From Virgibacillus dokdonensis (lineage in GTDB: Bacteria > Bacillota > Bacilli > Bacillales > Amphibacillaceae), in the NCBI RefSeq assembly GCF_900166595.1, contig NZ_LT745763.1, positions 2,848,986-2,912,985 on the forward strand: 64,000 nt of DNA, in the 5' to 3' direction. A model generated the notes under the pieces. It saw nothing but the letters and a program-made list of their open reading frames with translations. It was not told the DNA's origin and did not search any database. Both the position numbers and the translations under genes were made by a program. Of this stretch, positions 46,171-62,274 are shown one piece after another. Every line of letters begins with the position of its first letter. Position 1 is the first letter of the stretch.

Positions 46171-46243
46171 GCTGGTGTAGCACAGTTGGTAGTGCACTTC
46201 ACTCGTAATGAAGGGGTCGGAGGTTCGAATCCTCTCACCAGCA
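46171..46243 (+). tRNA. tRNA-Thr (anticodon CGU)
   Basis: 73 nt folding to a standard cloverleaf: acceptor GCTGGTG/CACCAGC, D arm GCAC/GTGC, anticodon stem CTTCA/TGAAG with loop CTCGTAA, T arm GGAGG-TTCGAAT-CCTCT, discriminator A. No encoded CCA. The 3' part from 46200 is the integration site of the element. Confidence 0.93.
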
Positions 46244-46244
46244 T
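46200..46244. repeat. attL core (45 bp)
   Basis: CACTCGTAATGAAGGGGTCG onwards to GCAT. It restores the 3' part of the tRNA gene, so the tRNA stays functional after integration. Confidence 0.9.
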
Positions 46245-46255
46245 TAATACAGTAG

Positions 46256-46299
46256 AGCGCTTAAACCTTTTATGTCAATGGTTTAGGTGCTCGTTTTTA
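46256..46299 (+). terminator. Terminator after tRNA-Thr, supplied by the element
   Basis: AGCGCTTAAACC and GGTTTAGGTGCT pair over 12 positions with G-U pairs, followed by T5. Confidence 0.65.
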
Positions 46300-46335
46300 T
46301 TGGTACAGTTTATACTATTTTTGAGTGATACAGCA

Positions 46336-46362
46336 TTTTTGCCGCAAAACTGCCACAAAAAA
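46336..46362. promoter_or_regulatory. Left arm-type integrase sites
   Basis: TTTTTGCCGCAAAACTGCCA: two TGCC(g/a)CAAAA units 11 bp apart. Similar TGCC..CAAA units lie beside attR at 62077-62112, as expected for arm sites of a tyrosine recombinase. Confidence 0.5.
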
Positions 46363-46501
46363 ATGTAACCTTATATTAATAAATTCATATAATAAATGAA
46401 AAACGTATGGTGTGTTTTAAGTCGGTTAAAATTTTGTTGTCGATATAGAACTTTTTCTTTTAATAATATTAATACCATCGTTTTTAATAATTCCTCAATA
46501 G

Positions 46502-46951
46502 AACGGGAGCTTTGGGGCAACAGAAGCGGCGAAAGCTTTAAGTTTTTCAAAACCTCATGATGCAATAAAAAATCACGTTGATGAGGATGACTCCGCCATC
46601 CACGGAGTCATCGACAAACTAGGCAGAAAACAAAGAAAGAAATTCGTGAATGAATCGGGATTGTACGCTTTGATCTTTGGAGCTTCTAAGCAAGGTAATA
46701 ATCCAGAAATAAGAGAAAGAGCTAAGAAATTTAAACGTTGGGTAACTCATGAAGTGCTTCCGTCAATCAGAAAACATGGAATGTACATGACAAACCAACT
46801 AGCACAAGAAATTACGAACAATCCAGAAATCATCCATTTTATTGCAGAGCAAGTCGCCAAAATAAATACGGCTAATAATCAATACCATGAACAAACGAAC
46901 AACAAATTAGAAGTTATCGACAAAAAGATTTTTAGTTATCAATTCCTGTGA
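46502..46951 (+). pseudogene. BRO-N family phage antirepressor, 5'-truncated
   Basis: Open from the TAG at 46499. The frame reads FGATEAAKALSFSKPHDAIK, then NESGLYALIFGASKQG and FKRWVTHEVLPSIRKHGMYM, a good BRO-N domain lacking about 25 N-terminal residues. The C-terminal DNA-binding/KilAC part is also cut; the frame ends where it meets a convergent gene. In satellites and prophages such proteins relieve repression. Confidence 0.8.
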
Positions 46952-47435
46952 CTTCTGTTGCCTTATTTAAACTTAATTCAATATCAGTATTCCCCACAAT
47001 ATGTCTTACCTTTTTAGTATAAAGTTTATTCGTCGTAGTTTTTGCAAACAGCACGATAATAACTTTTTCTCCAGTAGAGTACCCTGCTTTAAATAATTTT
47101 AGATCAATCTCTCTTTTGCTTTTTGTAAACCCTTTAGTATCAGCCCATTCTAATTTCACTCTTTTTGTATCCCTTGATAAAACATTGATTTTCTTATCCT
47201 TTTTCATTTTTATATAAAATCCTATTTCGGTAATAATAATAGGTACATTTCTCTTATTTACAAACCTGATTTGATATAGCCTCTTCTCTTTTCTAAACAA
47301 TAATTCTCCCTTTGGAAAATTACTAACACGAACGGTATACAATGTAACTGCAAGTGCTAAAAGAGTCAATACTGAGAGTGAAATATTTGATATGGCAGTT
47401 ATAGCATTCCAATCAACTATACCGTTTTCAAGCAA
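46932..47435 (-). CDS. Membrane-anchored protein of unknown function
   Basis: 167 residues from a TTG 8 bp after GGGGG. One N-terminal membrane helix (about 12-36) is followed by a basic beta-rich domain (45-160). No family recognised. It lies at the end of the element where accessory (morons, defence) genes are common, and converges with the BRO-N remnant, overlapping it by 20 bp. Confidence 0.6.
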   Translation of the reverse strand: MLENGIVDWNAITAISNISLSVLTLLALAVTLYTVRVSNFPKGELLFRKEKRLYQIRFVNKRNVPIIITEIGFYIKMKKDKKINVLSRDTKRVKLEWADTKGFTKSKREIDLKLFKAGYSTGEKVIIVLFAKTTTNKLYTKKVRHIVGNTDIELSLNKATEVTGIDN

Positions 47436-47651
47436 TTCAGCAACCCCCTTTTTTCACTAAGTTATTATCTCGCCATCCTTTTCGAGGACTGTCCTGTGAT
47501 AATCTGGATTAACTTCTTCTGTTGGTTGTTTATCCCAACAGTTTGCTCTTTCTAATAATTTAAGCCAGCAGGAACAGCCATTTTATATTCGCCGATATAT
47601 AAGCGGTGACCTCTATCCTCATTGGTTATCGCTCCTCTCGTGCTCTTCCTT

Positions 47652-47867
47652 CTATCTTCTTTTCGCTTCCCCCTTCATATTTGACGGAAACAGGTCATTT
47701 AATGTGCATTTAAATATTTTTGCTAACAATAACCCTTCTTGAATAGTGAACTGTTTTTTTCCGCGTTCTTTTTCGTGGTATGTTTGAGGATGCACCCCCA
47801 ACTTTATTGCTACCTCTTTTTGATTTAGCCCACTTTCCCTTCTCGCTATATACAGATTGGAATTCAT
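47652..47867 (-). CDS. Small XRE-family helix-turn-helix regulator
   Basis: 71 residues that are almost all helix-turn-helix: IARRESGLNQKEVAIKLGVHPQTYHEKERG, then a short basic tail. AAGGAAAGG precedes the ATG. The Cro/CI type is common in elements. Its own target is unknown; it is not part of the CI/Cro pair at the right end. The 215 bp between it and the membrane protein gene contain a Cys-rich open stretch without a start. Confidence 0.75.
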   Translation of the reverse strand: MNSNLYIARRESGLNQKEVAIKLGVHPQTYHEKERGKKQFTIQEGLLLAKIFKCTLNDLFPSNMKGEAKRR

Positions 47868-47997
47868 CTACCTTTCCTCCTTATACTTAATTAGCTATTT
47901 TCTCTAACTCTGTATCAAACAAATAACCTATCAAGAGACTTAGCTAATTGTTGAATAGTCATAACAAGATCCATTCCAAAATTCAACCTCGCTTCAT

Positions 47998-48138
47998 TCA
48001 AGCTTTTCTTTTACCGCTAGTGATAAATTTGTTTGTTTCCTCCTTCTCTTTTCTTCTTCTTTTAATAATTATCGGTGCTGAATGTAAAGCAAAAAACATT
48101 AGAATTTTCTCTTGAACATGCTCTGGTGCGTTGTTCAC
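47998..48138 (-). CDS. Small phage-type protein, possibly frameshifted
   Basis: 46 residues from a GTG 7 bp after AAAGGAGGTGA: MNNAPEHVQEKILMFFALHS..., then a very basic RRRKEK stretch. Downstream, other frames read LAVKEKL and NEARLNFGMDLVMTIQQLAK to 47915, which looks like the natural helical continuation, so the gene may have suffered small frameshifts. Function unknown. Confidence 0.5.
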   Translation of the reverse strand: MNNAPEHVQEKILMFFALHSAPIIIKRRRKEKEETNKFITSGKRKA

Positions 48139-48158
48139 GTTCGTCACCTCCTTTGTTT

Positions 48159-48242
48159 TTATTTAATTCCGAACCACTCGTTGATGGCATCATAGATGCC
48201 GAAATCACTTATAGCTGAAAAATTTTGCTTGTTTAAAGCCAT
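48159..48242 (-). CDS. Very short open frame related to antirepressor segment
   Basis: 27 codons: MALNKQNFSAISDFGIYDAI then NEWFGIK. No good ribosome site. SDFGIY recurs in the neighbouring antirepressor remnant, so this is more likely a remnant than a gene. Confidence 0.25.
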   Translation of the reverse strand: MALNKQNFSAISDFGIYDAINEWFGIK

Positions 48243-48253
48243 TATTAGGCCTG

Positions 48254-48467
48254 TTATCCGTTAAACGGATATTGGCTTTTTTTAATCATCACGCCTTCTG
48301 AACGTTGCGATCTAAATATTACTTTATAGATACCGAAGTCACTTAGAAAAAAACTTTTGATTCATACCCGTCAATTTGACAGATGTGAGATATTTCTTTT
48401 TTAAATGTCTTGTCATTGCGCTTGTTTCGCTATAACCCAACGCATTAGCTACCGCCCACCATTCAGA
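48254..48467 (-). pseudogene. Second BRO-N type antirepressor remnant, frameshifted
   Basis: Frame 1 from 48467: EWWAVANALGYSETSAMTRHLKKKY, cut here, ending KFFSK-stop. Shifting frame at a T7 run near 48352-48358 continues FLSDFGIYKVIFRSQRSEG. The two halves in order match the first half of a BRO-N domain. The rest is replaced by a TATCCG/CGGATA hairpin terminator (about 48249-48283). Confidence 0.55.
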
Positions 48468-48860
48468 TTATTAAAACTTCAACAAATAACCTTTATTAGA
48501 AAAAACTTGAGTAGAGGACAAATTGTCCCTAGTTGCAGATTACTCTACTAGTACCCTTGTCCAATTTTGGATAGGCTCCTTCTGTAGTAAAAAATCACGC
48601 ATGGTATAGCAAGTACCCACCTTTTGTGGGTAGGTAATTCCAATTAGGACGACCTAAGTTAGGGCTCCCTATACTTTAAGTGATGATGGCACATTTATTT
48701 CTATCTGCTAAACGGATAGTATTCTTTTCTTAATCATCAAGCAATACCTATTACATTCACTATAACAGATCCCTCAAATTTGAAGATACCCTTCAGGGAT
48801 TTTTTTGCTTATTTTTAGCAATACAAACTGAGGGTTGCCGAAAATTCGGCAACCTGGTGT
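48468..48860. other. Gene-free region with stacked hairpins
   Basis: No gene. Nested inverted repeats: AGTAGAG..CTCTACT (48510-48549) enclosing GGACAAATTGTCC, then TACCCAC..GTGGGTA (48614-48632), a second ATC.G.TAAACGGAT type hairpin (about 48702-48720), ATCCCT..AGGGAT with T7 (48771-48806) and GTTGCCGAAAATTCGGCAAC (48833-48852). Could hold a small RNA or be terminators of lost genes. Confidence 0.4.
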
Positions 48861-48892: not shown

Positions 48893-48906
48893 CTGAAATA
48901 GGAATA

Positions 48907-51615
48907 TTACCTAAAACTATCCCTCACCTTCTTATTACGTCTTTGCTTTTCTGTCACATAAGGCTCTGCGATATAACCTAGTTGTCTACCATCTACTTCA
49001 AAGCTTAAATGTCTCATAGCCTTAACCATAGCCATAGCCATTTTATCGTAGTCAATAGATTCGCCACCATTAGCCGCAGGATTATATTTCTTAGGTACTA
49101 CAGCTTCACCTTCGTGTAAGTACGCCAACCCGTCTTTAGCTACGTAGTTTGTACCTACGTTTAACTTAGGAATGTTAGGGATGTTAGGAAACCCAATTGA
49201 TTGCCCGCCTTTACCCCCAAGCCCGGGAACCCAATCGGGAATTTTAGGTAGTTTTATATCTAACCCATTTAAAGCGTTAATCATTCCATTTATAGCACCT
49301 ATAACACCATTAACAGCACCTTTTACACTACCCGTTATGCCATCCCATATATCATCGGTTGAGCTTTTAACACTATCCCATACGCCTGTGATGGTATCTT
49401 TAATGCTGTTAAACACTCTTGATACGGTTCCTTTCAAACCATCCCATATACCCGTGACAATGCCTTTTATTCTATTCCACATGTTTGATGTGATACTTTT
49501 AAGCCTGTTCCATATACCAGATATGACGTCTTTAATACCATTAAAAATCCCACTTGCAGTTGACTTAATACCATTCCATAACCCTGTCACAAATGATTTA
49601 ATAGCATTCCATACGGTTGATGTAACGGACTTAATACCATTCCACACGCTCGAAAAGAATGCTTTTACAGCATTAAATACAGTCATGGCTACTGATTTAA
49701 TCCCATTCCACACGCCCGTTAAAAATGCTTTTAAGGCTGTCCATACAACGGTTGCTACTGTTTTAATATTATTCCACGTTTCAGCAAAAAAGTTTTTAAT
49801 TGCTGTCCAAACAACCACAATTACATTCTTCATGATTTGCCATTGTTCATTGAGAAATGCACCTAATGATGTAACAACTTCAACAGATTTAGCTTTTAAC
49901 CAATCCCAAGTTTCCCCTATCCACTTAGAAACAGAATCCCAATTCTTCCACAGTAGTACAATTCCAGCTATCAAACCTGCAATAGCTGCTATAGTTCCCC
50001 ATATAGGTGCAGATATAGCTCCAATCGCTGTGGCTACAGCAGAACCTACAACTTTCAATACACCAAGTATTTTTGTTACAGAAAATATGATAGGTGCTAA
50101 CGCCATTAATGCACCAAGCACAACGGTTATCACAGAACCAATAACAGCCAAAGTAGATACCAGAGCAGAATTTTCTTTTGCCCAATCTGCGAACGTTCCT
50201 ACTACATCAGCAATATCATCTAATAAAGGTTTGAGTGTTTCTTTTATAGAAACAAAAGCTTCTCTGATTCTTTTTAATGGATCTTCGTCGGCTTCTTCTA
50301 CTGCATCTGTAAATCCTTCCGTTCCTTCTTTTAGATCAAAAGTATCTTTTTTCGCATTTATCAATACATCTGTAATAGCTTTCCCTTGATCTTCGTACAT
50401 TGTTCCGAAAATAGCTACACCTAGTTGACTTCTTTTTGTTTCATCATCAACGCCAACCAAAGCCTTTGCTACATCAGACATTGCCTGCTTTCCTGTTTCT
50501 CCGCCTTTCGCTACATCTTTACCCCACTGCTGTAGTTGTTCAGATGAAATATCAGTTCCTTCTATTAGTTTCTCTACAGATTTAGGTACTTCATCACCAA
50601 ATTCAGAAAGAAGTTTTCTCCCTTCTCCTAATCCATCTAAAAGATTATCTATATTCCAAGATTTCGTATCAACGCCAGAAGCGAATATGGTTTGTATTTC
50701 TTCGGCGTTGTAACCAGCCATAGATAATTGAGTACCATACTCAGCTATAATATCTAATTGTTCTGGAGGGAAGTTAGCTTTCAGTAATGAGTTAGTTAAT
50801 GCTAAAGCTTCTTCATTACCTATCCCTAGTGCTGCGCCTATCTCATTTGTTTCTTGTATTAATTCTGTGAAATCAATACCAGAATAGTTACTAGCGATAA
50901 CAGAAGCGCCTTTAGCCACTTTTGAATTAACTTCATCAGTTGCATTTGCGTTTAAAGCCCATTGCCTGCGAACACCTTCTAAAGCTTCTTCTGCATCAAT
51001 TCCATAAGTAGTGACTTCATTTATTGCCCCTCTTACCGCTTCTTTTGATTTTTCTGGTACATCAAAAGTAACATCAATTTTTGTATCTAAGGATGATGTA
51101 TCGAGCGCCTGTTGTATAGCTGTTCCTGCACCAACTCCTGCCGCTAAACCACCTAAAGCTGATTCAACGCCATCTATGGCTTTTTCGGTTTTTCCTGCTT
51201 CATCTTTAACGCCTTTCATATCTTTTTGCAGGTTATCTAATTCTTTACCATCATCAACAGAAGCTAACTTCTTTTTAAATCCATCTAGTTGGCTCTCTGT
51301 TTTAATAACTTCCCTTTGAAATGCTCTGTAAGCATCTTCCCCTATACCCCCACTTTTGAATTGTTTTTCAACTTGTTGCTGAGCTTTACGTAATTGACCA
51401 AGTTTATCACTTGTGTTTTCTACTTGTTGAGTGAGTATTTCCTGTTTTTGCGCTAATAGAGTGGTGCTTTTAGGATTAAACCTTAAACCTCGTTCCACTT
51501 CCCTTAATTCACTATTCAATTCGCTACTACGCTTATTTACGTCTTTAAGCGCCTTGTCCAGTCCTTTCGTTTCACCATCTAATTGTATTGTGATGCCCTT
51601 AATACGTTTTGACAT
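48907..51615 (-). CDS. Phage tail tape measure protein
   Basis: 902 residues. Coiled-coil N-terminus (1-160), a TP901-type core domain (170-470: VTTYGIDAEEALEGV, ALGIGNEEALALTNSLL), a strongly hydrophobic section (about 485-560), then about 16 tandem 11-residue units of the form WNxIKSxxxx (590-770), and a C-terminal tail with GLAYLHEGEAVVPKKYN. GGAGGAATATT precedes the ATG. It sets tail length in siphophages. It is the last gene of the leftward operon; no distal tail genes follow. Confidence 0.92.
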   Translation of the reverse strand: MSKRIKGITIQLDGETKGLDKALKDVNKRSSELNSELREVERGLRFNPKSTTLLAQKQEILTQQVENTSDKLGQLRKAQQQVEKQFKSGGIGEDAYRAFQREVIKTESQLDGFKKKLASVDDGKELDNLQKDMKGVKDEAGKTEKAIDGVESALGGLAAGVGAGTAIQQALDTSSLDTKIDVTFDVPEKSKEAVRGAINEVTTYGIDAEEALEGVRRQWALNANATDEVNSKVAKGASVIASNYSGIDFTELIQETNEIGAALGIGNEEALALTNSLLKANFPPEQLDIIAEYGTQLSMAGYNAEEIQTIFASGVDTKSWNIDNLLDGLGEGRKLLSEFGDEVPKSVEKLIEGTDISSEQLQQWGKDVAKGGETGKQAMSDVAKALVGVDDETKRSQLGVAIFGTMYEDQGKAITDVLINAKKDTFDLKEGTEGFTDAVEEADEDPLKRIREAFVSIKETLKPLLDDIADVVGTFADWAKENSALVSTLAVIGSVITVVLGALMALAPIIFSVTKILGVLKVVGSAVATAIGAISAPIWGTIAAIAGLIAGIVLLWKNWDSVSKWIGETWDWLKAKSVEVVTSLGAFLNEQWQIMKNVIVVVWTAIKNFFAETWNNIKTVATVVWTALKAFLTGVWNGIKSVAMTVFNAVKAFFSSVWNGIKSVTSTVWNAIKSFVTGLWNGIKSTASGIFNGIKDVISGIWNRLKSITSNMWNRIKGIVTGIWDGLKGTVSRVFNSIKDTITGVWDSVKSSTDDIWDGITGSVKGAVNGVIGAINGMINALNGLDIKLPKIPDWVPGLGGKGGQSIGFPNIPNIPKLNVGTNYVAKDGLAYLHEGEAVVPKKYNPAANGGESIDYDKMAMAMVKAMRHLSFEVDGRQLGYIAEPYVTEKQRRNKKVRDSFR

Positions 51616-51698: not shown

Positions 51699-51845
51699 TT
51701 ATTTTTCTGTAAAGCTAACCTCATAATGAGAAATCTTTCCATCTTGCCATACAATGGTTTGCTTTCCATAACCGCTTTTAGGTTTCGTCACTTTTTCCTC
51801 TTTACCATTTCTAATTATATACGTTTCATGATTTTGCTTTTCCAC
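51699..51845 (-). CDS. Small DUF3954-like phage protein
   Basis: 48 residues from a GTG 7 bp after AAGGGG, overlapping the end of the tail chaperone gene by 20 bp in another frame. The ending KPKSGYGKQTIVWQDGKISH resembles DUF3954 proteins of Bacillus phages. It occupies the place where the tail chaperone's frameshift extension is usually found, but it has its own ribosome site. Function unknown. Confidence 0.6.
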   Translation of the reverse strand: MEKQNHETYIIRNGKEEKVTKPKSGYGKQTIVWQDGKISHYEVSFTEK

Positions 51846-52203
51846 GGAAACGCCCCTTTCTAGCATGTTGGGTTATAGCGTATGCTATTAATTCATTAAT
51901 CTGCTGAAAAACAGATATAACTGGGAATTGCTTAAAATCTTCAAGCCATATTCTAAGTTTAGGAATTTCTTCATTAGCGTTTTTCGCAAAGATCCAGCAA
52001 ACATGAAGCAAAGCATAATGATCAACTTTCTTTAGATCTGATGGCGGAGATGTTACGGAATTAATATTATACTTTATAACCACATCATATTTTTTAACAT
52101 CTTTTAAGAAATCTCTTTTTAATAGTTTTTTATATCTTTCTACAGTATCTTCTGTAGCTTTAAACCGTATTGGTTTTGCATCTATCATAATGACCTTTTC
52201 CAT
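51826..52203 (-). CDS. Tail assembly chaperone-like protein
   Basis: 125 residues: MEKVIMIDAKPIRFKATEDT, RYKKLLKRDFLKDVKKY and LLHVCWIFAKNANEEIPKLR follow the pattern of Firmicute siphophage tail chaperones, which sit directly before the tape measure gene as here. The frame continues 37 codons upstream to an ATG at 52314 (AEARGDFSNSIVMRELF), which may be the end of another gene fused by deletion; the ATG at 52203 gives the family-length protein. Confidence 0.65.
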   Translation of the reverse strand: MEKVIMIDAKPIRFKATEDTVERYKKLLKRDFLKDVKKYDVVIKYNINSVTSPPSDLKKVDHYALLHVCWIFAKNANEEIPKLRIWLEDFKQFPVISVFQQINELIAYAITQHARKGRFRGKAKS

Positions 52204-52452
52204 ATATAATCGCCTGCCTTCTCCCATTTGCTTTAAAAAAAGTTCTCTCATTACTATGCTATTGGAAAAGTCTCCCCTTGCCTCGGCATCCCAAAACCAA
52301 TTTAAAGCTTGCATGGGGCGGGGGATCTATTTAATATCAATATAGGGGAATTCTTTCTATTTCCGTTCATAATAGCTTAAAAACATATTTATAGTGCTAT
52401 TTCCTTTTATCTATACCACACCCCTCACGCGTGACCTCACGCATAAAAATTA

Positions 52453-52472
52453 ACCTCCTTCCAACGGTTTCC
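52453..52472. repeat. 20-bp direct repeat, copy 1, in the morphogenesis region
   Basis: ACCTCCTTCCAACGGTTTCC, 19 of 20 bases the same as 54166-54185. Next to it lies CACGCGTGACCTCACGC, and at 52312-52321 an isolated GC run (ATGGGGCGGG) whose complement CCCCCGCCCC resembles known Bacillus phage cos overhangs as I remember them. The 190-bp gap 52315-52506 has no gene. Confidence 0.5.
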
Positions 52473-52506: not shown

Positions 52507-53112
52507 TTAAAGCATAGATATTATTTTTAATCTCTCCAACCTCTCTTTTCGTTCTTCTTCTTCAAATTCTTTTAATAATCGTTGTCGAATTGCTTCTTGC
52601 TGTTGGTAACTTATAGGCTGATCAACATGAATTTCTGAATCTTCATAAGCAGGTAAAGCTACAGCGCTGATCTCTGTCAACTTAGCTTTATGCACGGTTC
52701 GATAACTTAAACCATATTTGGAGTGATCCCATTCATCACCACCTTTTGGTATTCTAAAACCAATACTAATACCTGTTAAATCTCGCCTTCTAACTAATTC
52801 AAATAGGTCATTACCTAATGATGTGTCCGGTACATATAACCTAAAATGTAATCCTATACCGTTTTCCTTTAAGGATAAGGTTCCCGCACTTTTACGCCCT
52901 AACACTTTAGAACTATCATGAGCCATGAAAAAGAATTGATCATCACGTAGCAAGCTTTCGAGGAAAGCACCTTTACGGATGCTTTCCTTAAATTGCTTGG
53001 ATCCCCTTTTTAATATGGATGAATAACGATTCCATTTAACGGCATAGCCCGATAACGTTCTTTCATCTTCATTGACATTCGTTGGTGTAATACGAGTTTC
53101 GATTGTTCCCAT
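52507..53112 (-). CDS. HK97-family prohead protease
   Basis: 201 residues. The S78/HK97 protease core is visible: LSGYAVKWNR near 20, FMAHDSSKVLGRKSAGTLSL with catalytic His near 63, and the RRRDLTGISIGFRI segment with catalytic Ser near 117. The ATG overlaps the stop of the preceding gene (TAATG) behind GGTGGAGG, so it is coupled. In phages it matures the capsid, yet no capsid gene is in the element; it may act on helper-phage capsids or be left over. Confidence 0.85.
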   Translation of the reverse strand: MGTIETRITPTNVNEDERTLSGYAVKWNRYSSILKRGSKQFKESIRKGAFLESLLRDDQFFFMAHDSSKVLGRKSAGTLSLKENGIGLHFRLYVPDTSLGNDLFELVRRRDLTGISIGFRIPKGGDEWDHSKYGLSYRTVHKAKLTEISAVALPAYEDSEIHVDQPISYQQQEAIRQRLLKEFEEEERKERLERLKIISML

Positions 53113-53696
53113 TAGAAAATTCCTCCACCGTGAACAACAGCATTAGGTTTCGTATTAATCTCATATTTTTGTTTATTGAATAGCTGCGCATAACCATTAT
53201 CAAAAAATTCCGCACGTGGTTGGATCTTTAAACCTTCTACTGTTGACCAATCATAACGATTAGCTAAAGGCCTGACTTGTCCTTTCAATTTCCTATAATC
53301 CTCATTTACTTGTTCTATTTCTTCAAGTAGCTGTAAATACTCTTGTTTCTTCGCTTCGATCTTACCCTCTAACTTTTTACCCTTCTTTAACAAATCTTCT
53401 TTTTGGTCTGCATATTTATTAATGACATCAATAGCTTGATCTAGCATATTCTCTGGTTTTGAAGGATCTAAACGTTTGATGAAATCCTCAAGGGTGGAAA
53501 TGCGACTTTTAACATTTTCTTTTTGTTGTTTAACCTTTTCAGCTTGATCAAATTCCAGTTTTGACACATGAGCGCTATAATCATCTTCTAGTCCTTCTAG
53601 CTTTTTTTGTTCCTGGGAAAGCTCTTCTTCAAATTTTTCTTTTTGATTTTGTAACTTTTCACCTTCGGCACGATATTTTTTCATTAAATCTTCCAT
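53112..53696 (-). CDS. Coiled-coil protein, scaffold-like
   Basis: 194 residues, predicted long coiled coil over about 1-145 (runs of KLQNQKEKFEEELSQEQKKL type), then a globular tail ending NAVVHGGGIF. AAAGGAG precedes the ATG. It is translationally coupled to the prohead protease, the place and shape of a scaffolding protein or capsid delta domain. Family not identified. Confidence 0.6.
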   Translation of the reverse strand: MEDLMKKYRAEGEKLQNQKEKFEEELSQEQKKLEGLEDDYSAHVSKLEFDQAEKVKQQKENVKSRISTLEDFIKRLDPSKPENMLDQAIDVINKYADQKEDLLKKGKKLEGKIEAKKQEYLQLLEEIEQVNEDYRKLKGQVRPLANRYDWSTVEGLKIQPRAEFFDNGYAQLFNKQKYEINTKPNAVVHGGGIF

Positions 53697-53729: not shown

Positions 53730-54107
53730 TTAACTCTTTGAATTTATGAACGATTCAAACCCGTCATCATCATCATTATCTTTATTTGCTAAGTGCCTGT
53801 TCATGGCATCAGATAGAACTCGATAATTCGTTTGATTCAATTTAATAAAGTCTTTATATTCCTTAGCCTGTACTCGTTCCCTTTCATAAGGCGGCGTATT
53901 AGGAGATTGTGTAAAGAGTTCCGTATAACCATACTCATGCAAGTTTTTTGACAGATCTTCTATCCTAACCTCTAATATCGCTGTATTTAAAATTGTCTTA
54001 TCCAATACAGCTAACATAGATGGAGATAAATCTTCATATTCTTTTCTAAGTCTTTCGTATTCTTGTTTTATCCTTTCATCTACAGATAAATCTTGTTCAA
54101 TTGGCAT
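53730..54107 (-). CDS. Possible small terminase subunit (P27-like)
   Basis: 125 residues from the ATG at 54107 behind AAAAAAGGAGGTG. Helical throughout; the order LDKTILNTAILEVRIEDLSK, TELFTQSPNTPPYERERVQA, NYRVLSDAMNR resembles P27-type small terminases, which satellites use to redirect packaging. It ends in an acidic DNDDDDGFESF tail. The identification is by pattern and context only. Confidence 0.45.
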   Translation of the reverse strand: MPIEQDLSVDERIKQEYERLRKEYEDLSPSMLAVLDKTILNTAILEVRIEDLSKNLHEYGYTELFTQSPNTPPYERERVQAKEYKDFIKLNQTNYRVLSDAMNRHLANKDNDDDDGFESFINSKS

Positions 54108-54165
54108 AAAAACACCTCCTTTTTTAGGGTAGGGGGTCACGCGAAATGACCTGTGTATTATTTGT

Positions 54166-54185
54166 ACCTCCATCCAACGGTTTCC
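54166..54185. repeat. 20-bp direct repeat, copy 2
   Basis: ACCTCCATCCAACGGTTTCC, with GGGGGTCACGCGAAATGACC nearby, mirroring the CACGCGTGACC motif beside copy 1. The two copies bracket the terS-like, coiled-coil and protease genes. Confidence 0.5.
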
Positions 54186-54277: not shown

Positions 54278-54727
54278 TTAAACAACAACTCTTTCTTCTC
54301 TTGTTTGTTCATTCCCTTGCTCCCTTTCTTTTATATGTTGTATGTCATTTGCTATTGTTCGAACAACTTCTCTAATCTGTTCACCTAATCCGTTTTTAGA
54401 GAAGATCAGATGATTATCCTTCATCAATTTATTAAACAAATGTTGCTGTTCTGCTCCTAATCCTTCTATAGCTTGTTGATAGTAGTTCATGTTCCTTTGT
54501 ATGCGCACCTTCTGCTTCTCATAATTTGATGATAGAGAAGCTAACTCAATACCTAACGTTTCTGTTGATCTATGGCAATAACCAATATGTCCTAAAGCTA
54601 GATCTAGTTGAGGATAGCCACTATATAGAATTTCTTCCCTTCGTTCCTGGTATTGCTCATTTAACACTTGCATTTCTTGCTCTGCATAAATGTATTTTTG
54701 TAACTCATACCATTCTGTTAAATCCAT
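54278..54727 (-). CDS. Helical protein of unknown function
   Basis: 149 residues, all-helical and charged. AGGTGGGG precedes the ATG. Residues 85-125 (YYQQAIEGLGAEQQHLFNKL) faintly resemble a region-4-like late transcription activator of phages, the usual gene upstream of terminase, but no firm helix-turn-helix is seen. Confidence 0.5.
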   Translation of the reverse strand: MDLTEWYELQKYIYAEQEMQVLNEQYQERREEILYSGYPQLDLALGHIGYCHRSTETLGIELASLSSNYEKQKVRIQRNMNYYQQAIEGLGAEQQHLFNKLMKDNHLIFSKNGLGEQIREVVRTIANDIQHIKEREQGNEQTREERVVV

Positions 54728-54785: not shown

Positions 54786-54974
54786 TTAAGATACATCTTC
54801 ATATTCTGCTTTTTCTTCTAATACTTGTATAATCTCGTTTTTATAAGTAACTAATAAACGCTTTAAATAGTATGGAAGATTAGTTCCGTTATTTACTATT
54901 AATCTATCTTCATTTACAGATAGAGAGAAACCAGCTAATTCCGCATAATCTATCAACTTTATAATTCCGATCAC
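54786..54974 (-). CDS. Small TubC-N-like protein next to the primase
   Basis: 62 residues: IDYAELAGFSLSVNEDRLIV, then PYYLKRLLVTYKNEIIQVLEE. This is the helix-beta-beta-helix pattern of the TubC N-terminal docking fold found as short stand-alone proteins beside primase genes in elements. The start GTG is 9 bp after AAGGA. It lies on the far side of the origin from the primase gene. Confidence 0.5.
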   Translation of the reverse strand: MIGIIKLIDYAELAGFSLSVNEDRLIVNNGTNLPYYLKRLLVTYKNEIIQVLEEKAEYEDVS

Positions 54975-55675
54975 GTCATCACATCCTTGTATGAATAATT
55001 GGGTATAACTCTAGTTCATTTAAGTGTTTTTTTATAGAGTAACAAGTAAGTAACAAACAGTAACAAGGGGTAACAAGCATTTTATATTCTTGTTACCAAG
55101 ATCCGCCTTACTCTCACAAGGCTTTTAAGATTTCAGTAACAAAAGTAACAAGTTTAAGAAAAAATATACTTACATATATATTTATTTTTTATTATCATGT
55201 TTTTTTCAGTAATCCCATGTATGTTTTATATTTCTTGTTACTATTGTTACTTTTGTTACTCATGACGTTTCAAACGTTGATATATAAGGTTTTTGTAGAG
55301 TAACAAACTTCCCTTTTCGTACCTTTTGACTTGTTACCTTTGTTACTATTCGCTAAAAACGTCATCACATCCTTATATGAATAATTACCAAATTACCATT
55401 TCAATACTAGATAATTACCTGTCTTTTATTCTTTGGTAATTGCTCTATTAGTTATCAATTCAACGTTTGTATCGTTCAAATTACCAAATTACCATTTTTG
55501 ATAAAACTATAACTTATATATGATATTGTTTTTTTATTTTTTTTACTTTCTAGTTATATGTTAGTGTGTGGTAATTTGGTAATTTTGGTATTTTACACTT
55601 TCTAGCTGTTGTTGCTCTTGGCTTTAATGAATTACCATTTTTTTAACCAATTTGTATTAATGGTAATTTTGGTAT
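54973..55675. other. Predicted replication origin with two iteron families
   Basis: 700 bp without genes, between the 62-residue protein and the primase-helicase stop. Block 1 (55039-55346) has 13 copies of GTAACAA or its complement; the first four are spaced 10-11 bp apart (55039, 55050, 55060, 55070). Block 2 (55383-55668) has about ten copies of AATTACCA or TGGTAATT. Each block is preceded by the same 28 bp (54973-55000 and 55359-55386, one mismatch). Very AT-rich segments lie between. Confidence 0.75.
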
Positions 55676-58078
55676 TTAATGAGATATCCCAAATTCGAAC
55701 CCTAGTTCACTTACGTATTTCATATTTACAGGAATAGCCTTATATGTTTTCCTTTTAACAGTAATCGGCTTATAATCTACCTTTTTACCATTCCTTTCAC
55801 ATGGGATTGTAATTCCTCTTTTCATCCATTCCTTACGTATCTGTTTCTCCTCAATTCCTAAATAGTCCTTAACATACGCAATCATTAAATAAAGTTGATT
55901 GTTTCTGTAGATAGCCTTATGAATTTGTGGTTCATATTCATAAAAAATATCTTGCCTGCTACTATCCAAATCAGTTAAAATTTCCTCCAGAAACTGCATA
56001 GGCTTGTCTATTGCTCTGTTTTCTTCTGCCATTTCATCAAATAAGCGTGATATTGCTTTTAAATCTATATCCATCCCTAGCATTTTGTTCAATATACTTC
56101 CCGTAAAATGAATAGCTGCATAATATCCCGCTAAACGACTTAAAACTTCATTCCCTTTTGCTTTATCTATATAATGTTTTCTAAAGTTGTGGTATTCAGG
56201 AATTAAGTCTTTCTTTTGTTTTTGCCATGCTTCCAAGAAATCAATTCCAATTGCGCCATAATTGTTTTCCATTCCCTCATACAGTTGTATGATGTTGTCT
56301 TGATCTTTTTTTAATGGTTCATCAATTAACGGAATAATTCTAGCTGCCGCACCGCCCTGGTTCTTAGCATATTCATTTAGAGAAACTTCTCCTGTACTTA
56401 ATAGGATATTGTTCCAGGTGTATTCCCTTTGACTTCCTTTTAAGCTACCTCGCCCTTTTGATCTACCGCCACTAAATTGATAGATAATATCTTTTAAAAC
56501 TCGTTCATTAGCTTTTCTAGTATCATCAAGCAATAAAGGATAGCTGTTTAAATATGCCGCCTTGCGTTCTATAGAAACTCTTGTGGCGTTCCATTCACTT
56601 AACAAGTTCTCATTTCCCCAAACACTAGCTGCCGCTCTTAATGTTGTTGTTTTTCCTTGTGAAGTCGTTCCACTAAGATCAACAATGAATGGCTGTACTC
56701 TAAGATCTTTTATAACAATGCTTGCAAAGCTTGCTAATACCATGAAAACAGCTTTTGGGCTTTGTTTAAGTCGTTCAAATACTTCATTTTTCCATGATTC
56801 GCTTGTTCCTTTTATTTCAAAGCCTTCATTTATTTGTTTTTCACCTTGATCTATCGCCATAATCTCAACATCATTTGTAAGAATAGGATGAATGAATCTT
56901 CCTTTAATGCTTCCTAACCTCTCAACTGCATAATGCTGTTTAATATCGTTTGCTAGTAAATACCGATCAAAATAAGTGATAATCTTCCTAACGTTATTTT
57001 CATTAATAGAAAAGCCTCTATCGCTTAGTTCAAGCAATTCTTTTCTAATAGCAATAGTAGAAGCTGGTATGATCTCTTTCACCGTTCTATTACGTTCTTT
57101 CCATTGAATTTCATAAAATACTTGTGGCCGTTCCACATTATAAAACTCTTTCGTTATATATGGTGTTTTTCGAGATACAAGCGTTGTAGCTACATTTCCA
57201 TCCTTATATTCTTTTTCCTCAAACAAAGTGTTCTTAGAGCCTATTTTAAACGGCTTGGGTATTACTATATTTTCTTGTTCACCTTCAATTTGCAATTCAA
57301 AACTAACATCACTCTTATTGGAACGGTTATTCTCTTCGCCAACTTTTTTTAAAGCTGAATTAACCTTCTCTCCAATAGATCTAAGGGGAAAATCTTCTTT
57401 GTATGGAACAAAGTATTCATAAGCTAATTCCAGGCTTTCTTGCACCTCTTTTTTACTCACACCACAATGCAAAAGCCTTCTTGCTAAGTCATAAAAATCA
57501 CCATCACGTGAACCATTAGTTTCATATGGATAAGCCATAGGTGAAGCTGTTTTTTGTCCATTCCATACTTTTTTTAAATAATGTGGTGGTTCATCTAGCT
57601 GTTCTAAGCTAGTTGATACAATATAACGCCCCTCAGTATTATAAGTTGGAAATACTTCATAACCTGAACCTGCCTTACGTGCATCTGTTGCAATCCCTAA
57701 TCTATTAACATAACCTTGATACTGAGTAAGTCCTTCCGATTCTCTAAATATAAAATGAAAACCTTTAGGCGTTTTAATAGCGTGGTGATGTACTAACTCA
57801 CCTTCTAACAAGTCTTTGAGCAACTTCCCCTCTACTTCATCATCCACATCAATTAAATATCTTCCTTTAGGGATAACAGCGCCGATCCAACCGCCTTGTT
57901 CTAACCATTTATTTATTTGATCGTCATTTAATGACTGTGTATCTTTCCATTTTCCAGCAGCCTTTTTAGCTGTTTGGTAATCAGTATTTCCCTTGGAATA
58001 TCCAATTAGCTTAATGATCTTTGCACCAGGCATTAATTCATGAACTTTATCTGTATAACGTGTTGTGATAGCCTGCAA
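55676..58078 (-). CDS. Prim-pol / DUF927 helicase fusion (satellite replication protein)
   Basis: 800 residues from a TTG at 58078 behind AAGGGGGTGA. N-terminal bifunctional primase-polymerase domain (about 1-180; IPKGRYLIDVDDE supplies catalytic aspartates, HAIKTPKGFHFIFR the His).  Then a DUF927 superfamily helicase: Walker A GTTSQGKTTTLRAA near 470 and Walker B YPLLLDDTRK near 510. Primes and unwinds at the adjacent iterons. The same design is used by pathogenicity islands and P4-like satellites. Confidence 0.9.
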   Translation of the reverse strand: MQAITTRYTDKVHELMPGAKIIKLIGYSKGNTDYQTAKKAAGKWKDTQSLNDDQINKWLEQGGWIGAVIPKGRYLIDVDDEVEGKLLKDLLEGELVHHHAIKTPKGFHFIFRESEGLTQYQGYVNRLGIATDARKAGSGYEVFPTYNTEGRYIVSTSLEQLDEPPHYLKKVWNGQKTASPMAYPYETNGSRDGDFYDLARRLLHCGVSKKEVQESLELAYEYFVPYKEDFPLRSIGEKVNSALKKVGEENNRSNKSDVSFELQIEGEQENIVIPKPFKIGSKNTLFEEKEYKDGNVATTLVSRKTPYITKEFYNVERPQVFYEIQWKERNRTVKEIIPASTIAIRKELLELSDRGFSINENNVRKIITYFDRYLLANDIKQHYAVERLGSIKGRFIHPILTNDVEIMAIDQGEKQINEGFEIKGTSESWKNEVFERLKQSPKAVFMVLASFASIVIKDLRVQPFIVDLSGTTSQGKTTTLRAAASVWGNENLLSEWNATRVSIERKAAYLNSYPLLLDDTRKANERVLKDIIYQFSGGRSKGRGSLKGSQREYTWNNILLSTGEVSLNEYAKNQGGAAARIIPLIDEPLKKDQDNIIQLYEGMENNYGAIGIDFLEAWQKQKKDLIPEYHNFRKHYIDKAKGNEVLSRLAGYYAAIHFTGSILNKMLGMDIDLKAISRLFDEMAEENRAIDKPMQFLEEILTDLDSSRQDIFYEYEPQIHKAIYRNNQLYLMIAYVKDYLGIEEKQIRKEWMKRGITIPCERNGKKVDYKPITVKRKTYKAIPVNMKYVSELGFEFGISH

Positions 58079-58181
58079 GAAGTTCACCCCCTTTACTTCA
58101 AAAAAACTGTATATCAAATGCGATTTATGTTATACTTATGGTAACTATATAATTGCTTATAAGGGCTGGAAACCTAAGCGA

Positions 58182-58418: not shown

Positions 58419-58435
58419 TGTTTATTCCCCTTTCG

Positions 58436-59032
58436 TTATTGGACAACTGCTAAATGCTTGGATTTTGTTTCCTTAATTTTTTCTGGTTTCCCATCTCGAA
58501 TATACATTGCTTCACCTTTACTGTTTTTAAAGGTATTTGGCGTTTCCATGCCTTGAGAAGCCATAAATTCTTCCATAAGGCTTAAATGTCCTTCCGCTCT
58601 TCTTAAAGAACTCATATAACAAAGTAACTCAACTTCAAAGTTCATTACTTCCCCATTCATGTACTCCCATAAAAACTCAGATATGTTTTCACCAATAGGC
58701 ACATCTTTATCCAGCATTTCGATATACTCTTTTGTATAGAAATAATCTTTCGCTTCAATCTTATAACCTTTGAAGTCTTTATCAATTGGAAATATGTTCG
58801 TAAATTCTCTAGGTGTAAGCAATCCCATTGTGCTTTTGATAGCACTAGCTAATTGAAATGCGTCTAATATCTCATTAAATCCTTTTTGCTCTGGTGCGCT
58901 GTTTACCATTTTTACACCATATAATACGGTTTTTTTAATATCATCCTTATCTAAGCTAACTTGGTATGCTTTTACCGAATTAATGAATGCTTTTAAGTAC
59001 AAATAATATTTCTCTTGATCGTTACGCCTCAT
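58436..59032 (-). CDS. Element early protein, unknown
   Basis: 198 residues, mostly helical, ending in a basic tail. AGGAGG lies 7 bp before the ATG inside the end of the upstream gene (11-bp overlap). It belongs to the operon between cro and the primase gene. I recognise no domain. Confidence 0.65.
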   Translation of the reverse strand: MRRNDQEKYYLYLKAFINSVKAYQVSLDKDDIKKTVLYGVKMVNSAPEQKGFNEILDAFQLASAIKSTMGLLTPREFTNIFPIDKDFKGYKIEAKDYFYTKEYIEMLDKDVPIGENISEFLWEYMNGEVMNFEVELLCYMSSLRRAEGHLSLMEEFMASQGMETPNTFKNSKGEAMYIRDGKPEKIKETKSKHLAVVQ

Positions 59033-59445: not shown

Positions 59446-59768
59446 AAAAGTGCAGCTGCTTCAGGATGCTGCTGTGTATCGTCTATAAGTTCACCAAAGA
59501 ATGACATTTGTCCGTCCATTATCTCTAAGCTTGCTTTTATTTCCGTGGCTTGATCCATAATTTTATGGTTTTTATTTTCCATGCTTACCACCTCCTTCTC
59601 TTTATTTTCCAACACATGACATTCCATAGTTTTACTAACTTCTTGCTTAGAATAAAATCCTTCGTATGCTTCATGAGCGCAATCTTTTGAACAGAATACA
59701 GATCCATTCTTTCCAGCCCGATAATAGCGACTTTGAAGTATACCATTCCCACAGTTAGAACAAATCAT
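59442..59768 (-). CDS. Small zinc-knuckle protein with an internal start
   Basis: 108 residues. CSNCGNG at 3-9 and FCSKDCAHEAY near 26 suggest a treble-clef zinc knuckle. A very strong internal ribosome site (AAGGAGGTGG) precedes an in-frame ATG at 59582, so a 46-residue C-terminal product (MENKNHKIMDQATE...) is likely made as well, or the two were once separate genes. Confidence 0.6.
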   Translation of the reverse strand: MICSNCGNGILQSRYYRAGKNGSVFCSKDCAHEAYEGFYSKQEVSKTMECHVLENKEKEVVSMENKNHKIMDQATEIKASLEIMDGQMSFFGELIDDTQQHPEAAALL

Positions 59769-59795
59769 TTTATTTCTCCTTCCTTCGCTTACGTT

Positions 59796-60038
59796 TTAAC
59801 TATCACGTTCTATAAAGAACTTCTTTTGTAATTCGTGGTTTACATTAATGTCAAAAAAAATATCATATGGATTTTTTTCTAAAACGTCACATATTGCAGA
59901 TATTGTCTTTTGTGTAGGATTACTTTTTCTATTTTCAACATTACTTACTGTAACCCTACTTAAACCAGATCGCCTTGCAAGTTCAGAAATAGAGATTCCT
60001 CGTTCTTGTCTAAATACCTTCAATTTATTGTAATTCAT
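59796..60038 (-). CDS. Cro-like XRE regulator
   Basis: 80 residues. Helix-turn-helix LARRSGLSRVTVSNVENRKS at about 20-39. Divergent from the CI-like repressor; first gene of the leftward early operon. Operator 3 covers its start codon, so it should be tightly controlled by the repressor. Confidence 0.85.
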   Translation of the reverse strand: MNYNKLKVFRQERGISISELARRSGLSRVTVSNVENRKSNPTQKTISAICDVLEKNPYDIFFDINVNHELQKKFFIERDS

Positions 60039-60159
60039 GATTTACACCTCCTTGAGCATAATTATAAAGTATCTCTCTGATTTTTGTCAACCATGATTTA
60101 CAAAACCTACAACCAAATTATAATAAATATCTTGCTATTTTGTCAACCTCGATTTACAA
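60028..60159. promoter_or_regulatory. Tripartite CI/Cro operator region
   Basis: Three 20-bp sites of the form TTGTYAA-N6-TTTACAA: 60028-60047 (over the cro start), 60084-60103 and 60140-60159 (35 bp before the repressor start). The centre-to-centre distance is 56 bp in both cases. This is a clear lambda-type divergent switch. Confidence 0.75.
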
Positions 60160-60194
60160 TTGCTTTAGAAAAAGATTTAAAAGGTGGTGACAAA

Positions 60195-60821
60195 ATGAGT
60201 CAACTAGGTGAATTTTTAAAAGAACTCAGAGGGAATAAATCAATTCGAGAAGTCGCTAAAGGTATTGGCATCAGCCATACTTATTTAAGCACATTAGAAA
60301 AAGGATATGACCCTCGAACAAAAAAAGAAAGAAAACCTACATTCGAAGTCTTAAGTAAATTAGCTAAATACTATAATGTATCAAGTGAAACATTAATGCA
60401 TAAAGCAGGTTATACTGATTTAGATCCTCTTAAATCATTTGGAGAGAATTTAAAAATATTACGAGGTGAACAACCACTTGAAAAAGTAGCAAAAGAAACA
60501 AATATATCTGAGAAGTACTTAAAAAGATTAGAGGAAGGTTTACCAGGGAATCAGAGACCAACTATATCGAATGTTATTAAACTTGCTGAATATTTTAATG
60601 TGAGAATATCAAATTTTGCCTTTTTAGCTGGTTATGACGAAACAGACATAGTCAAGGAAAGAGTTGGTATAGACATGGAATCTCCTGCAGATTTAGATAT
60701 ACGATATAGATTGGTCAGACCAGATAAAGATGCATATTACAACGGAATCAAATTAACTGAAGAAGAACGAAATGAAGCTGTATCGATTCTAGATAATCTT
60801 TTTAAAACCAAATGTAAATAG
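60195..60821 (+). CDS. Master repressor with two XRE domains (CI/Stl-like)
   Basis: 208 residues from the ATG at 60195 behind AAAAGGTGGTGA; 37 upstream codons are open but contain the operators. HTH 1 is about 3-63 (IREVAKGIGISHTYLSTLEK), HTH 2 about 78-140 (LEKVAKETNISEKYLKRLEEG), each with the FEVLSKLAKYYNV / NVIKLAEYFNV dimer-type extension. No peptidase domain, so induction by RecA-driven autocleavage is unlikely; derepression by a helper-phage protein is a better model. Confidence 0.8.
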   Translation: MSQLGEFLKELRGNKSIREVAKGIGISHTYLSTLEKGYDPRTKKERKPTFEVLSKLAKYYNVSSETLMHKAGYTDLDPLKSFGENLKILRGEQPLEKVAKETNISEKYLKRLEEGLPGNQRPTISNVIKLAEYFNVRISNFAFLAGYDETDIVKERVGIDMESPADLDIRYRLVRPDKDAYYNGIKLTEEERNEAVSILDNLFKTKCK

Positions 60822-60857
60822 ACAATTCTAAAAGTTATAGTTGAATAGGGTGATCTT

Positions 60858-62051
60858 ATGGCTGGTAGTGTAAGAAAGCGTGGTAAAAATTCTTGGGAAT
60901 TATCTGTCAGTCTAGGTTTAGGTGCTGATGGAAAATATATAAGAAAATATAAAAACGTTAAAGCTAAAAACAAAACGGAAGCCAGGAAGCTTCTTACGGC
61001 TTTTGAAAATGAAATAAATAGTGGTGAATATATCGAACCAACAAAAATTAAGTTTGCTGCTTTTGTAAACGACTGGCGTAATCTATATGCAAATAAGCAT
61101 TTTGCAGCTAAAACACTTGAAGCATACAACTATATATTAGATGGCCATATCATACCTGCATTCGGAAATAAGAAACTAGAAACCATTCAACCAATCCATA
61201 TAACAAAATATCTTGATGACTTGGAAAATGCTCGTAAAGATAAAAAAGAAGGAAAGCTTTCAACTGCTACAATCTACAAACATTATGCAATACTCCGATC
61301 TATCTTCAATTACGCTACAAACCATTTACGCATTTTGAAGAAAAATCCCGTATCACTTGTTCCTAAACCTAAAGTTGAAAGCAAAAAATATGAGGTATAC
61401 ACAGATGAAGAAGTGAATGATTTATTTGCTTTACTGGAGAATGAGTTAATTCATTATGGTTTAATGGTAAAAATCGCTATTTTAGGTGGGCTTAGACGCG
61501 GTGAAATACTTGGCTTGCTATGGGAAAATGTAAACTTTGACAAGAATACCGTTCAAGTACAATATTCGCTTAACTACACAAAAGATAAAGGATATGAATT
61601 GAAAGCACCTAAAAATGGTGAGGAAAGAACTATAACGTTACCTGGCTTCTTAATGAATGAACTAAATGAGTACAGCCATTTACGAAAAAAAGATCAATTA
61701 CAAGCTTCAGAATTATGGGATGGAGAATACCACGACTTTGTATTTTCTACTCACGAAGTAAAAGAAGGTCAAATTGTGGAGTTTGGAAAGCCTTTTTACC
61801 CTGGTAGTGTCTCGAGGTGGTGGACTAGATTTTTAAACCGCACTAAATTTAAAGCAATTCGCTTTCATGATCTACGACACACAGCTGCAACACTTTTAAT
61901 AAATGAAGGACTTCATGCAAAACATATTTCCTCACGATTAGGTCATGCCGATATTCAAATCACCATGAATACTTATGGCCATTACTTACAAGAAGCCGAT
62001 CAAAATGCTGCTAATATCTTAGAAAAAAAGTACGGAAAAAAGAACGTTTAA
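60858..62051 (+). CDS. int: Tyrosine integrase of the element
   Basis: 397 residues: AP2-like arm-binding N-terminus (1-60), SAM-like core-binding domain (65-170), catalytic domain with Arg213 (GGLRRGEILG), His337-x-x-Arg340 (HDLRHTAATLL), His363 (LGHADIQ) and Tyr373 (MNTYGHY), all present. AGGGTGATC precedes the ATG; 36 bp after the repressor gene, likely cotranscribed. attR lies 180 bp downstream. Confidence 0.95.
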   Translation: MAGSVRKRGKNSWELSVSLGLGADGKYIRKYKNVKAKNKTEARKLLTAFENEINSGEYIEPTKIKFAAFVNDWRNLYANKHFAAKTLEAYNYILDGHIIPAFGNKKLETIQPIHITKYLDDLENARKDKKEGKLSTATIYKHYAILRSIFNYATNHLRILKKNPVSLVPKPKVESKKYEVYTDEEVNDLFALLENELIHYGLMVKIAILGGLRRGEILGLLWENVNFDKNTVQVQYSLNYTKDKGYELKAPKNGEERTITLPGFLMNELNEYSHLRKKDQLQASELWDGEYHDFVFSTHEVKEGQIVEFGKPFYPGSVSRWWTRFLNRTKFKAIRFHDLRHTAATLLINEGLHAKHISSRLGHADIQITMNTYGHYLQEADQNAANILEKKYGKKNV

Positions 62052-62074
62052 GCACCATGTTTATGGTGTTTTTG
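62052..62074 (+). terminator. Terminator of int
   Basis: CACCAT-GTTT-ATGGTG followed by T5, starting at the stop codon. Confidence 0.65.
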
Positions 62075-62075
62075 T

Positions 62076-62112
62076 TTGCCTACAATTGCCACAAAAACTG
62101 CCAACAAATTTA
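62076..62112. promoter_or_regulatory. Right arm-type integrase sites
   Basis: Three TGCC units (62077, 62087, 62099) in TTGCC-TACAA / TTGCC-ACAAAAA / CTGCC-AACAAA context, spaced 10-12 bp, matching the left arm sites at 46336-46362. Confidence 0.5.
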
Positions 62113-62229
62113 CACAAAAATAATTATAACCTATCAAATTTATCAAATGAAAAATAAGCAGGTAATAACAAAAGCCTGCTATATCAGTACATGCAAAGCC
62201 AAAACTGTTATAGTATTTTCAATGTAGCA

Positions 62230-62274
62230 CACTCGTAATGAAGGGGTCGGAGGTTCGAATCCTCTCACCAGCAT
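62230..62274. repeat. attR core (45 bp, displaced tRNA 3' half)
   Basis: Identical to 46200-46244. Preceded by AATGTAGCAC, which itself repeats the tRNA's TGTAGCAC but skips 17 bases of the D arm and anticodon stem. Confidence 0.9.

Follow-up and report, generated by a model that had tools for sequence, protein, structure and literature searches.

The window analysed here is a 64,000-nucleotide stretch of Virgibacillus dokdonensis contig NZ_LT745763.1 (positions 2,848,986 to 2,912,985), and coordinates below are window positions. At 46200..62274 it contains an element at a tRNA-Thr gene that combines integration, regulation and replication genes laid out as in phage-inducible chromosomal islands (PICIs) with a short set of phage late genes. 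Compared locus stretches are designated L, genomes or assemblies G and contigs C. The principal features are the following.

46200..46244, plus strand: left attachment site (attL), 45 nt, 3' end of tRNA-Thr (tRNA 46170-46244)
48907..51615, minus strand: tape measure protein (TMP), 902 aa, open frame; phrog_5755, E 1.5e-148
51826..52203, minus strand: tail assembly chaperone (TAC)-position protein, 125 aa; phrog_709 (a PHROG of unknown function), E 9e-21
52507..53112, minus strand: S78 (HK97-type) prohead protease; PF04586, E 6e-42; TIGR01543, 93.2 bits (cut-off 59)
53112..53696, minus strand: coiled-coil protein, 194 aa, near-orphan; helical model, mean pLDDT 66
53730..54107, minus strand: terminase small subunit (TerS) homologue; phrog_1066, E 5e-21; the open reading frame (ORF) opens at 54173, the likely ATG by eye being at 54107
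54132..54152, minus strand: core of a cos-like site, 25-45 nt upstream of the TerS start
55029..55677, no strand: putative replication origin, iteron-rich, with GTAACAA and GGTAATT families
55676..58117, minus strand: primase-polymerase (Prim-Pol)/DUF927 helicase fusion; phrog_8841, E 5e-180; PF06048, PF09250
58182..58418, minus strand: excisionase-type HTH_17 protein; PF12728, phrog_66
58436..59032, minus strand: 198-aa protein; phrog_6329; 58% to L059
59022..59339, minus strand: 105-aa protein; phrog_23736; relatives in L059 and L212
59442..59768, minus strand: 108-aa Cys-containing protein; 51% over residues 1-83 to L246, 46% over 63-108 to L245
59796..60038, minus strand: cro-type helix-turn-helix (HTH) regulator; PF01381
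60084..60821, plus strand: CI/Rpr-type repressor with two HTH domains
60858..62051, plus strand: tyrosine integrase; PF00589, phrog_1
62230..62274, plus strand: right attachment site (attR), 45 nt

The two 45-nt att copies are identical direct repeats that bound the element, and the inserted unit measures 16,030 bp from one copy to the other. In the sister genome G139 the site is empty: the flanks (to 46244; from 62230) join with an overlap of exactly 45 bp, and none of the element's inside sequence matched there in a search of eight genomes of the genus, its own included. The element is a real integrated unit at a tRNA-Thr attB, and the limits given by an earlier reading of the letters alone (hereafter the sequence-only reading) are exact. 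A second att-like copy lies about 4-7 kb from tRNA-Thr in two sister genomes (G141:C10:1210643-1217784 and G145:C39:28778-33071), which suggests that other elements use the same hotspot.

The integrase and the two-HTH repressor face one direction, and in the opposite one lie the cro-type regulator, small ORFs, the HTH_17 protein and the Prim-Pol+DUF927 fusion, followed 3' of the primase by iteron-rich DNA, two small ORFs, TerS, the coiled-coil protein, the S78 protease, the TAC-position protein, a DUF3954 protein and the TMP. The main frames are open, the exception being an antirepressor fragment. Pfam and PHROG labels together with the iteron stretch thus confirm the division into an integrase/CI arm and a cro/xis/prim-pol/origin arm that had been drawn from the letters, as well as the remark that the repressor has no cleavage domain, since its domain listing contains neither Peptidase_S24 nor any other such domain.

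Divergent int-rpr and xis-pri-rep-ori arms, packaging through terS or cos and a size of about 15 kb are attributed to Gram-positive PICIs in the available portion of a report on these islands (PMC6092414), and in gene order and size (16.03 kb) the element resembles them and the Staphylococcus aureus pathogenicity islands. The same portion describes these islands without phage structural genes, whereas the element has a protease, a TAC-position protein and a TMP; of lytic genes it shows one weak spanin-like match (E 0.008). Because absence of structural genes is among the listed features of PICIs and does not hold here, we call the element PICI-type. The same source also lists an att site that prophages never use, a repressor released by a helper protein without being cleaved, interference with the helper and packaging into its particles. 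Its primase and small ORFs are common to loci that we name capsid-forming PICIs (cf-PICIs) from their layout, the primase and phrog_6329 occurring in phage-like loci too.

The primase-helicase is nearest to those of L109/L245 (73% identity) and L059 (71%), both over its full length, with L246 at 66%. L109/L245, L246, L250-L254 and L059 are laid out as int-repressor-xis-primase-portal-protease-capsid-TerS-TerL (TerL, large terminase subunit), with the integrase not on the stretch in L253. These Bacillota loci share with the element an integrase, a repressor, an xis-type gene, small ORFs and a primase-helicase at 51-73% identity, but in place of their set of portal, protease, capsid, TerS and TerL genes the element has TerS, coiled coil, protease, TAC-position protein and TMP, with no head shell or motor. 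cf-PICIs are defined by having their own capsid, portal and TerL genes, and the element does not have them. For the 198-aa protein, the closest named relatives are also in Bacillota.

The TMP, which the sequence-only reading had recognized, is an uninterrupted 902-aa frame with relatives in phage GBSV1 (40% over residues 1-874) and in the G041 prophage (46% over 1-823). The tail chaperone it had named next to the TMP holds by position and by homology to six phage proteins, all of which are encoded directly upstream of a TMP, but it matches no TAC family and its start has to be moved: the ORF opens at 52314, whereas homology begins at 52203, the first residue of the six homologues corresponding to residue 38 of the long frame. 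A homologue search with the TAC-position protein returned only itself. The prohead protease was likewise correctly named (both PF04586 and, above its cut-off, TIGR01543), and its H65 and S116 are invariant across nine aligned sequences; its matches to "major head protein" PHROGs fall inside the protease region itself. A single-sequence protease search of IMG/VR gave zero confirmed loci. What had been called TerS-like is a TerS homologue by phrog_1066, and its relatives (31-34%) are neighbours of TerL in phages of staphylococci; in two records, both of the same phage, the annotation is terminase small subunit. The coiled-coil protein has a weak match (E 1.6e-4, 22% identity) to a protein in the equivalent place of L213; other searches found only itself in the protein database, only its own genome among 159 family genomes and no confirmed relative in IMG/VR.

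Portal, TerL and capsid proteins, which the sequence-only reading had reported missing, were indeed not found among the 19 window proteins scanned with Pfam and PHROGs (for the TMP, among the best 25 of 53 PHROG matches), and no tail tube or tail tip gene is recognizable in the element. The Caldibacillus phage CBP1, the Geobacillus phage GBSV1 and staphylococcal phages of the 77 kind encode homologues of part of the set TerS, protease, TAC and TMP; these phages are complete, with TerL, portal, capsid and tail genes that the element does not have.

Phage CBP1 also shares the cos-like site. A stretch of about 80 nt before the TerS gene aligns with the equivalent place in the G106 prophage, CBP1 and L064, with 0 of 1000 dinucleotide shuffles reaching the score in each case, and the same region aligns with phage PG1 (0 of 500). 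The core pattern occurs in 30 IMG/VR stretches, and by custom profiles it lies directly before terS in all 30, with TerL next in 29; the thirtieth stretch ends 372 bases past the motif. The pattern was found just twice in 159 family genomes, once in this element and once in the G106 prophage; its reversed version was found in none of them, and a 96-base query against an annotated phage collection returned chance-level matches only. Since the motif directly precedes terS in 30 of 30 IMG/VR stretches, it is very likely a cos site of helper type, and TerS with such a site but no TerL fits packaging by the TerL of a helper.

Similar gene sets recur. Eight further loci contain a TMP without a portal, TerL or capsid label (L043, L052, L060, L099, L131, L212, L213 and L233), with TMPs of 775-1400 aa, that of L043 being truncated where its contig stops. 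In L052, L060, L212, L213 and L233 the stretch includes integrase and repressor genes; the assignment of L043, L099 and L131 as satellites rests on phrog_6329 and gene order. Among 73 sister ORFs searched in Pfam, no portal, TerL or capsid family appeared in the best 25 of 26 families; a PHROG scan of these ORFs, covering the best 25 of 52 families, is insufficient alone to exclude head genes. The 73 ORFs are the 79 listed, minus 7, plus 1; the list was confined to ORFs of one strand that are at least 66 aa long and had no label as TMP, integrase, repressor, xis, primase or phrog_6329. A TAC-position gene precedes the TMP in six of the eight loci: those of L212 and L213 pass PF23857, those of L131 and L099 match TAC_8 below cut-off, and those of L052 and L233 are so assigned from their place and from PHROGs without a known function; searches of L043 and L060 gave no such gene. 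L213 again has a coiled coil, a TAC and a TMP, along with a protease-like protein that scores below the TIGR01543 cut-off and retains the His and Ser, and L052 carries a TerS (phrog_2538). Three of the eight are bounded by att-like repeats, of 65+26 nt (L213), 84 nt at tRNA-Ala (L233) and 18 nt (L212); the repeat of L052 has only 12 nt, and one was sought in L060 and not found. The expectation that the same gene order would recur at tRNA-Thr in other Bacillaceae was not borne out, as the bounded relatives lie elsewhere, at tRNA-Ala and, by eye, at the glnA 3' end and beside trmFO and rpsD-tyrS, and the module varies.

These loci come from several searches. In 398 genomes of the class, DUF927 occurs at 41 places in 36 genomes, 30 of which places were examined; the 11 left out were nine near-identical-scoring places of one genus, the element's own and one broken. 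A TMP label is present in four of the 30: L212 and L213, both PICI-type with no portal, TerL or capsid, L208 and L204. L060, L099 and L131 are among the 37 loci in genomes and 57 in viral sequences that a search with phrog_6329 turned up; protease and primase searches across 159 genomes yielded L043 and L052, and a TMP search yielded L233. L204 (TMP-like label, element type unclear), L066 and L086 (TMP label) were dropped, and L098 was rejected as a satellite and taken as a phage, the genes 3' of its TMP looking like tail-tip genes by eye. Locus tallies use custom profiles, which miss other TerL and portal types (L230 is a full prophage by eye with a TMP label only); the CI profile drifted and was not relied on.

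One assembly offers a possible link to a helper. In G029 (73% complete), contig C95 carries part of a prophage, including portal, protease, capsid and TMP, and C101 resembles part of a satellite. Their TMPs are alike at the N-terminus (84% DNA identity over 672 columns) and have 141 identical end bases, with a divergent middle, and the number of codons to the shared end is 568 in the satellite-like TMP (L043) versus about 707 in the prophage. A satellite ruler adapted to the tail parts of its helper would look like this, with the reservation that in an assembly of this completeness the two contigs (L043/L044) may stem from different organisms. Tail shortening as a general rule was considered and rejected: the TMPs of L052, L099 and L131 are shorter than the relatives found for them, those of L060, L212 and L213 lie within the range of theirs, and those of L233 and the window are about equal to theirs.

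Taken together, the PICI plan, a primase nearest to those of cf-PICIs, shared early ORFs, the cos-like site and TerS without TerL, the empty site and the recurrence support the proposal of a satellite already made in the sequence-only reading. The element is probably a phage satellite of PICI plan that would be packaged by a helper through cos and TerS, in particles whose helper tails would be built on its own chaperone and tape measure; from sequence we put the probability of this reading at roughly 0.64. A helper phage protein would lift repression, whereupon the element would excise and replicate; through its cos site and TerS, satellite DNA would be loaded into helper heads by the TerL of the helper; and its chaperone and TMP would replace those of the helper, so that helper tube and tip proteins would assemble on the satellite ruler into a chimeric tail. 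More weakly inferred, the extra protease and the coiled coil might be incorporated into procapsids of the helper and shift their size or maturation to the advantage of satellite particles. Such a head role for the two proteins is a guess, as is the idea that the coiled coil acts as a decoy of the HK97 delta domain, although small or capsid-homologous satellite proteins are said to redirect head size elsewhere in the portions available of two reports (PMC8569155, PMC12409344).

The chimeric-tail step is plausible because there is an experimental precedent in the PICI-like elements (PLEs) of Vibrio cholerae. According to the available part of the 2026 report on satellite control of phage tails (PMC12987554), the TMP and BhuB in PLE11 virions are those of the satellite and replace the ICP1 proteins, the tails are about 10 nm shorter, and deletion of tmp cuts transduction by about 99.9% in PLE11, 96% in PLE1 and 99% in PLE4. 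The element resembles these PLEs, in which chimeric tails have been demonstrated, in having a satellite TMP with a TAC, and the remodelling of helper tails suggested in the sequence-only reading is plausible. PLEs differ in host, helper and plan; PLE11 adds a baseplate hub protein, and the part of that report available does not mention a prohead protease, TerS or a PICI replication plan. The element is not itself a PLE, a class marked by a Vibrio host, an ICP1-type helper and PLE gene content; its own gene content is PICI-type.

Several observations weigh against a satellite with its own tail ruler. The primase is also 68-71% identical to those of L247, L248 and L249, contigs that look at least partly phage-like, so that by itself it does not establish a satellite. 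The cos-like site is not shared with the G041 prophage, the best full-length TMP match (45 of 500 shuffles reach the score), or with phage CD2301 (139 of 500). The TAC-position protein matches no TAC family in Pfam or NCBIfam, and its single-sequence structure model was unusable; the coiled-coil model, of medium confidence, has no significant fold match. The window TMP (902 aa) is not clearly shorter than its phage relatives in GBSV1 (955) and the G041 prophage (about 861), and no prophage with a close TMP was found in the element's own genome (other matches 23%). Finally, the sister modules vary in gene content.

The element could alternatively be a satellite whose TMP and TAC, and perhaps protease, are weapons that derail tail and head assembly of the helper and do not enter particles. 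A precedent exists in SaPIbov5, whose capsid homologue Ccm blocks phage reproduction via small capsids, but it is not general, as phage growth stayed abnormal when the capsid homologue of EcCICFT073 was deleted (both in the available part of PMC6092414). The L043 TMP, which shares both examined ends with the prophage TMP and differs in the middle, might be such a poisoning partner. However, in six of the eight relatives a full-length open TMP is accompanied by a chaperone-position gene, which looks like a set built to work, and the PLE satellite TMP is reported as present in the virion (PMC12987554, available part). We consider this use as weapons unlikely.

The following features complete the inventory of the element.

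46500..46951, plus strand: antirepressor (Bro-N) fragment; PF02498, phrog_130; both ends of the full protein missing; adjoins attL
46932..47435, minus strand: 167-aa ORF; membrane-like N-terminus by eye
47652..47867, minus strand: 71-aa HTH protein; PF01381
51699..51866, minus strand: DUF3954 small protein; PF13128, phrog_4556; between chaperone and tape measure
52453..52472, minus strand: 20-nt copy (19/20) of the flank of the cos-like site (54166-54185); between protease and TAC
54278..54727, minus strand: 149-aa ORF; helical; weak PHROG match to an Rz-like spanin (E 0.008)
54786..54974, minus strand: 62-aa ORF; weak TubC_N docking-domain match

In Pfam, PHROGs, NCBIfam and PADLOC, the 167-aa ORF has zero matches and the 149-aa ORF weak ones only. 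The upstream part of the antirepressor fragment is 60% to residues 25-84 of the L111 antirepressor. The 52453 stretch was rejected as a second cos-like site, because only the 20-nt flank is common with the first and its matches to eight phage and prophage sites are weak (best PG1, 3 of 500 shuffles reaching the score); the flank repeat is possibly the scar of a module exchange.

On the reading of a reduced prophage, the TerL and portal genes, those from capsid to tail tube and those from tail tip to lysis would have been lost, and TerS, protease, TAC and TMP would be chance survivors. The order of these four genes is collinear with that of phages, and the G106 prophage (L042) has relatives of all of them (TerS 29%, protease 46%, TAC 32%, TMP N-terminus 60%) together with the cos-like site; the antirepressor fragment, the weak spanin-like match and the primase relatives on phage-like contigs would also agree with such an origin. 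Yet the best matches of the late genes are scattered over different places (protease 49% L038; TMP 46% L229 or 40% GBSV1; TerS 37% L064), that of the primase is in cf-PICIs, and similar gene sets recur in other loci. The frames are open, and six gap stretches gave no remnant of lost late genes at the sensitivity used, yielding the antirepressor fragment only (by nucleotide comparison, chance-level matches of 30-37 bases only). Tests for a complete or decayed prophage found neither genes nor remnants of TerL, portal, capsid, tail tube, tip or lysis functions beyond that fragment and the spanin-like match. A reduced prophage is not favoured and seems improbable. It is hardly credible that TMP and TAC are cargo without a function, acquired when the element recombined with phages at the flank of the cos-like site. 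The 20-nt flank copy between protease and TAC could be a recombination scar, but the recurrence of such sets with TMPs of differing types, and with differing att sites in the bounded loci, speaks for selection, as do the open frames of 775-1400 aa.

If the element is, as preferred here, a helper-packaged satellite with its own tail ruler, it and its relatives extend the tail control reported for Vibrio PLEs (PMC12987554, available part) to Gram-positive PICI-type loci without head genes, and tie it to cos/TerS packaging. An added feature is a prohead protease and a coiled-coil protein without a capsid gene, a pair not found described in the available portions of the literature searched. Nor did a literature search by titles and abstract openings, in which subscription journals were largely uncovered, reveal a description of a PICI-type satellite of Gram-positive bacteria that has a TAC, a TMP and a prohead protease and lacks a capsid gene. 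Tentatively, and with less confidence than for the element itself, Bacillota satellites related to cf-PICIs may borrow heads and tail tubes while setting tail assembly with their own chaperone and ruler; a second protease and a free scaffold-like coil may re-programme helper heads (here and in L213), and packaging here may proceed via a copied helper cos.

Other variants of these loci were noted in passing. L208 (G356:C13) is PICI-type and combines portal, protease, capsid and TerL labels with a TMP label. Directly after the TMP, a 249-259-aa protein is encoded at L052:2888-3667, L099:9922-10686 and L131:11376-12125; phmmer links the three (E 1e-12 to 2e-4), and the L052 copy has no PHROG or NCBIfam match, its start resembling Ntn hydrolases by eye. 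In Halolactibacillus halophilus (L061/L051), a related PICI-type element has a lone HK97-type capsid protein and no portal or TerL label, and near its late end (L051:2382-4236) lies, by eye, an XRE/ImmA-type gene with a neighbour, which may be cargo.

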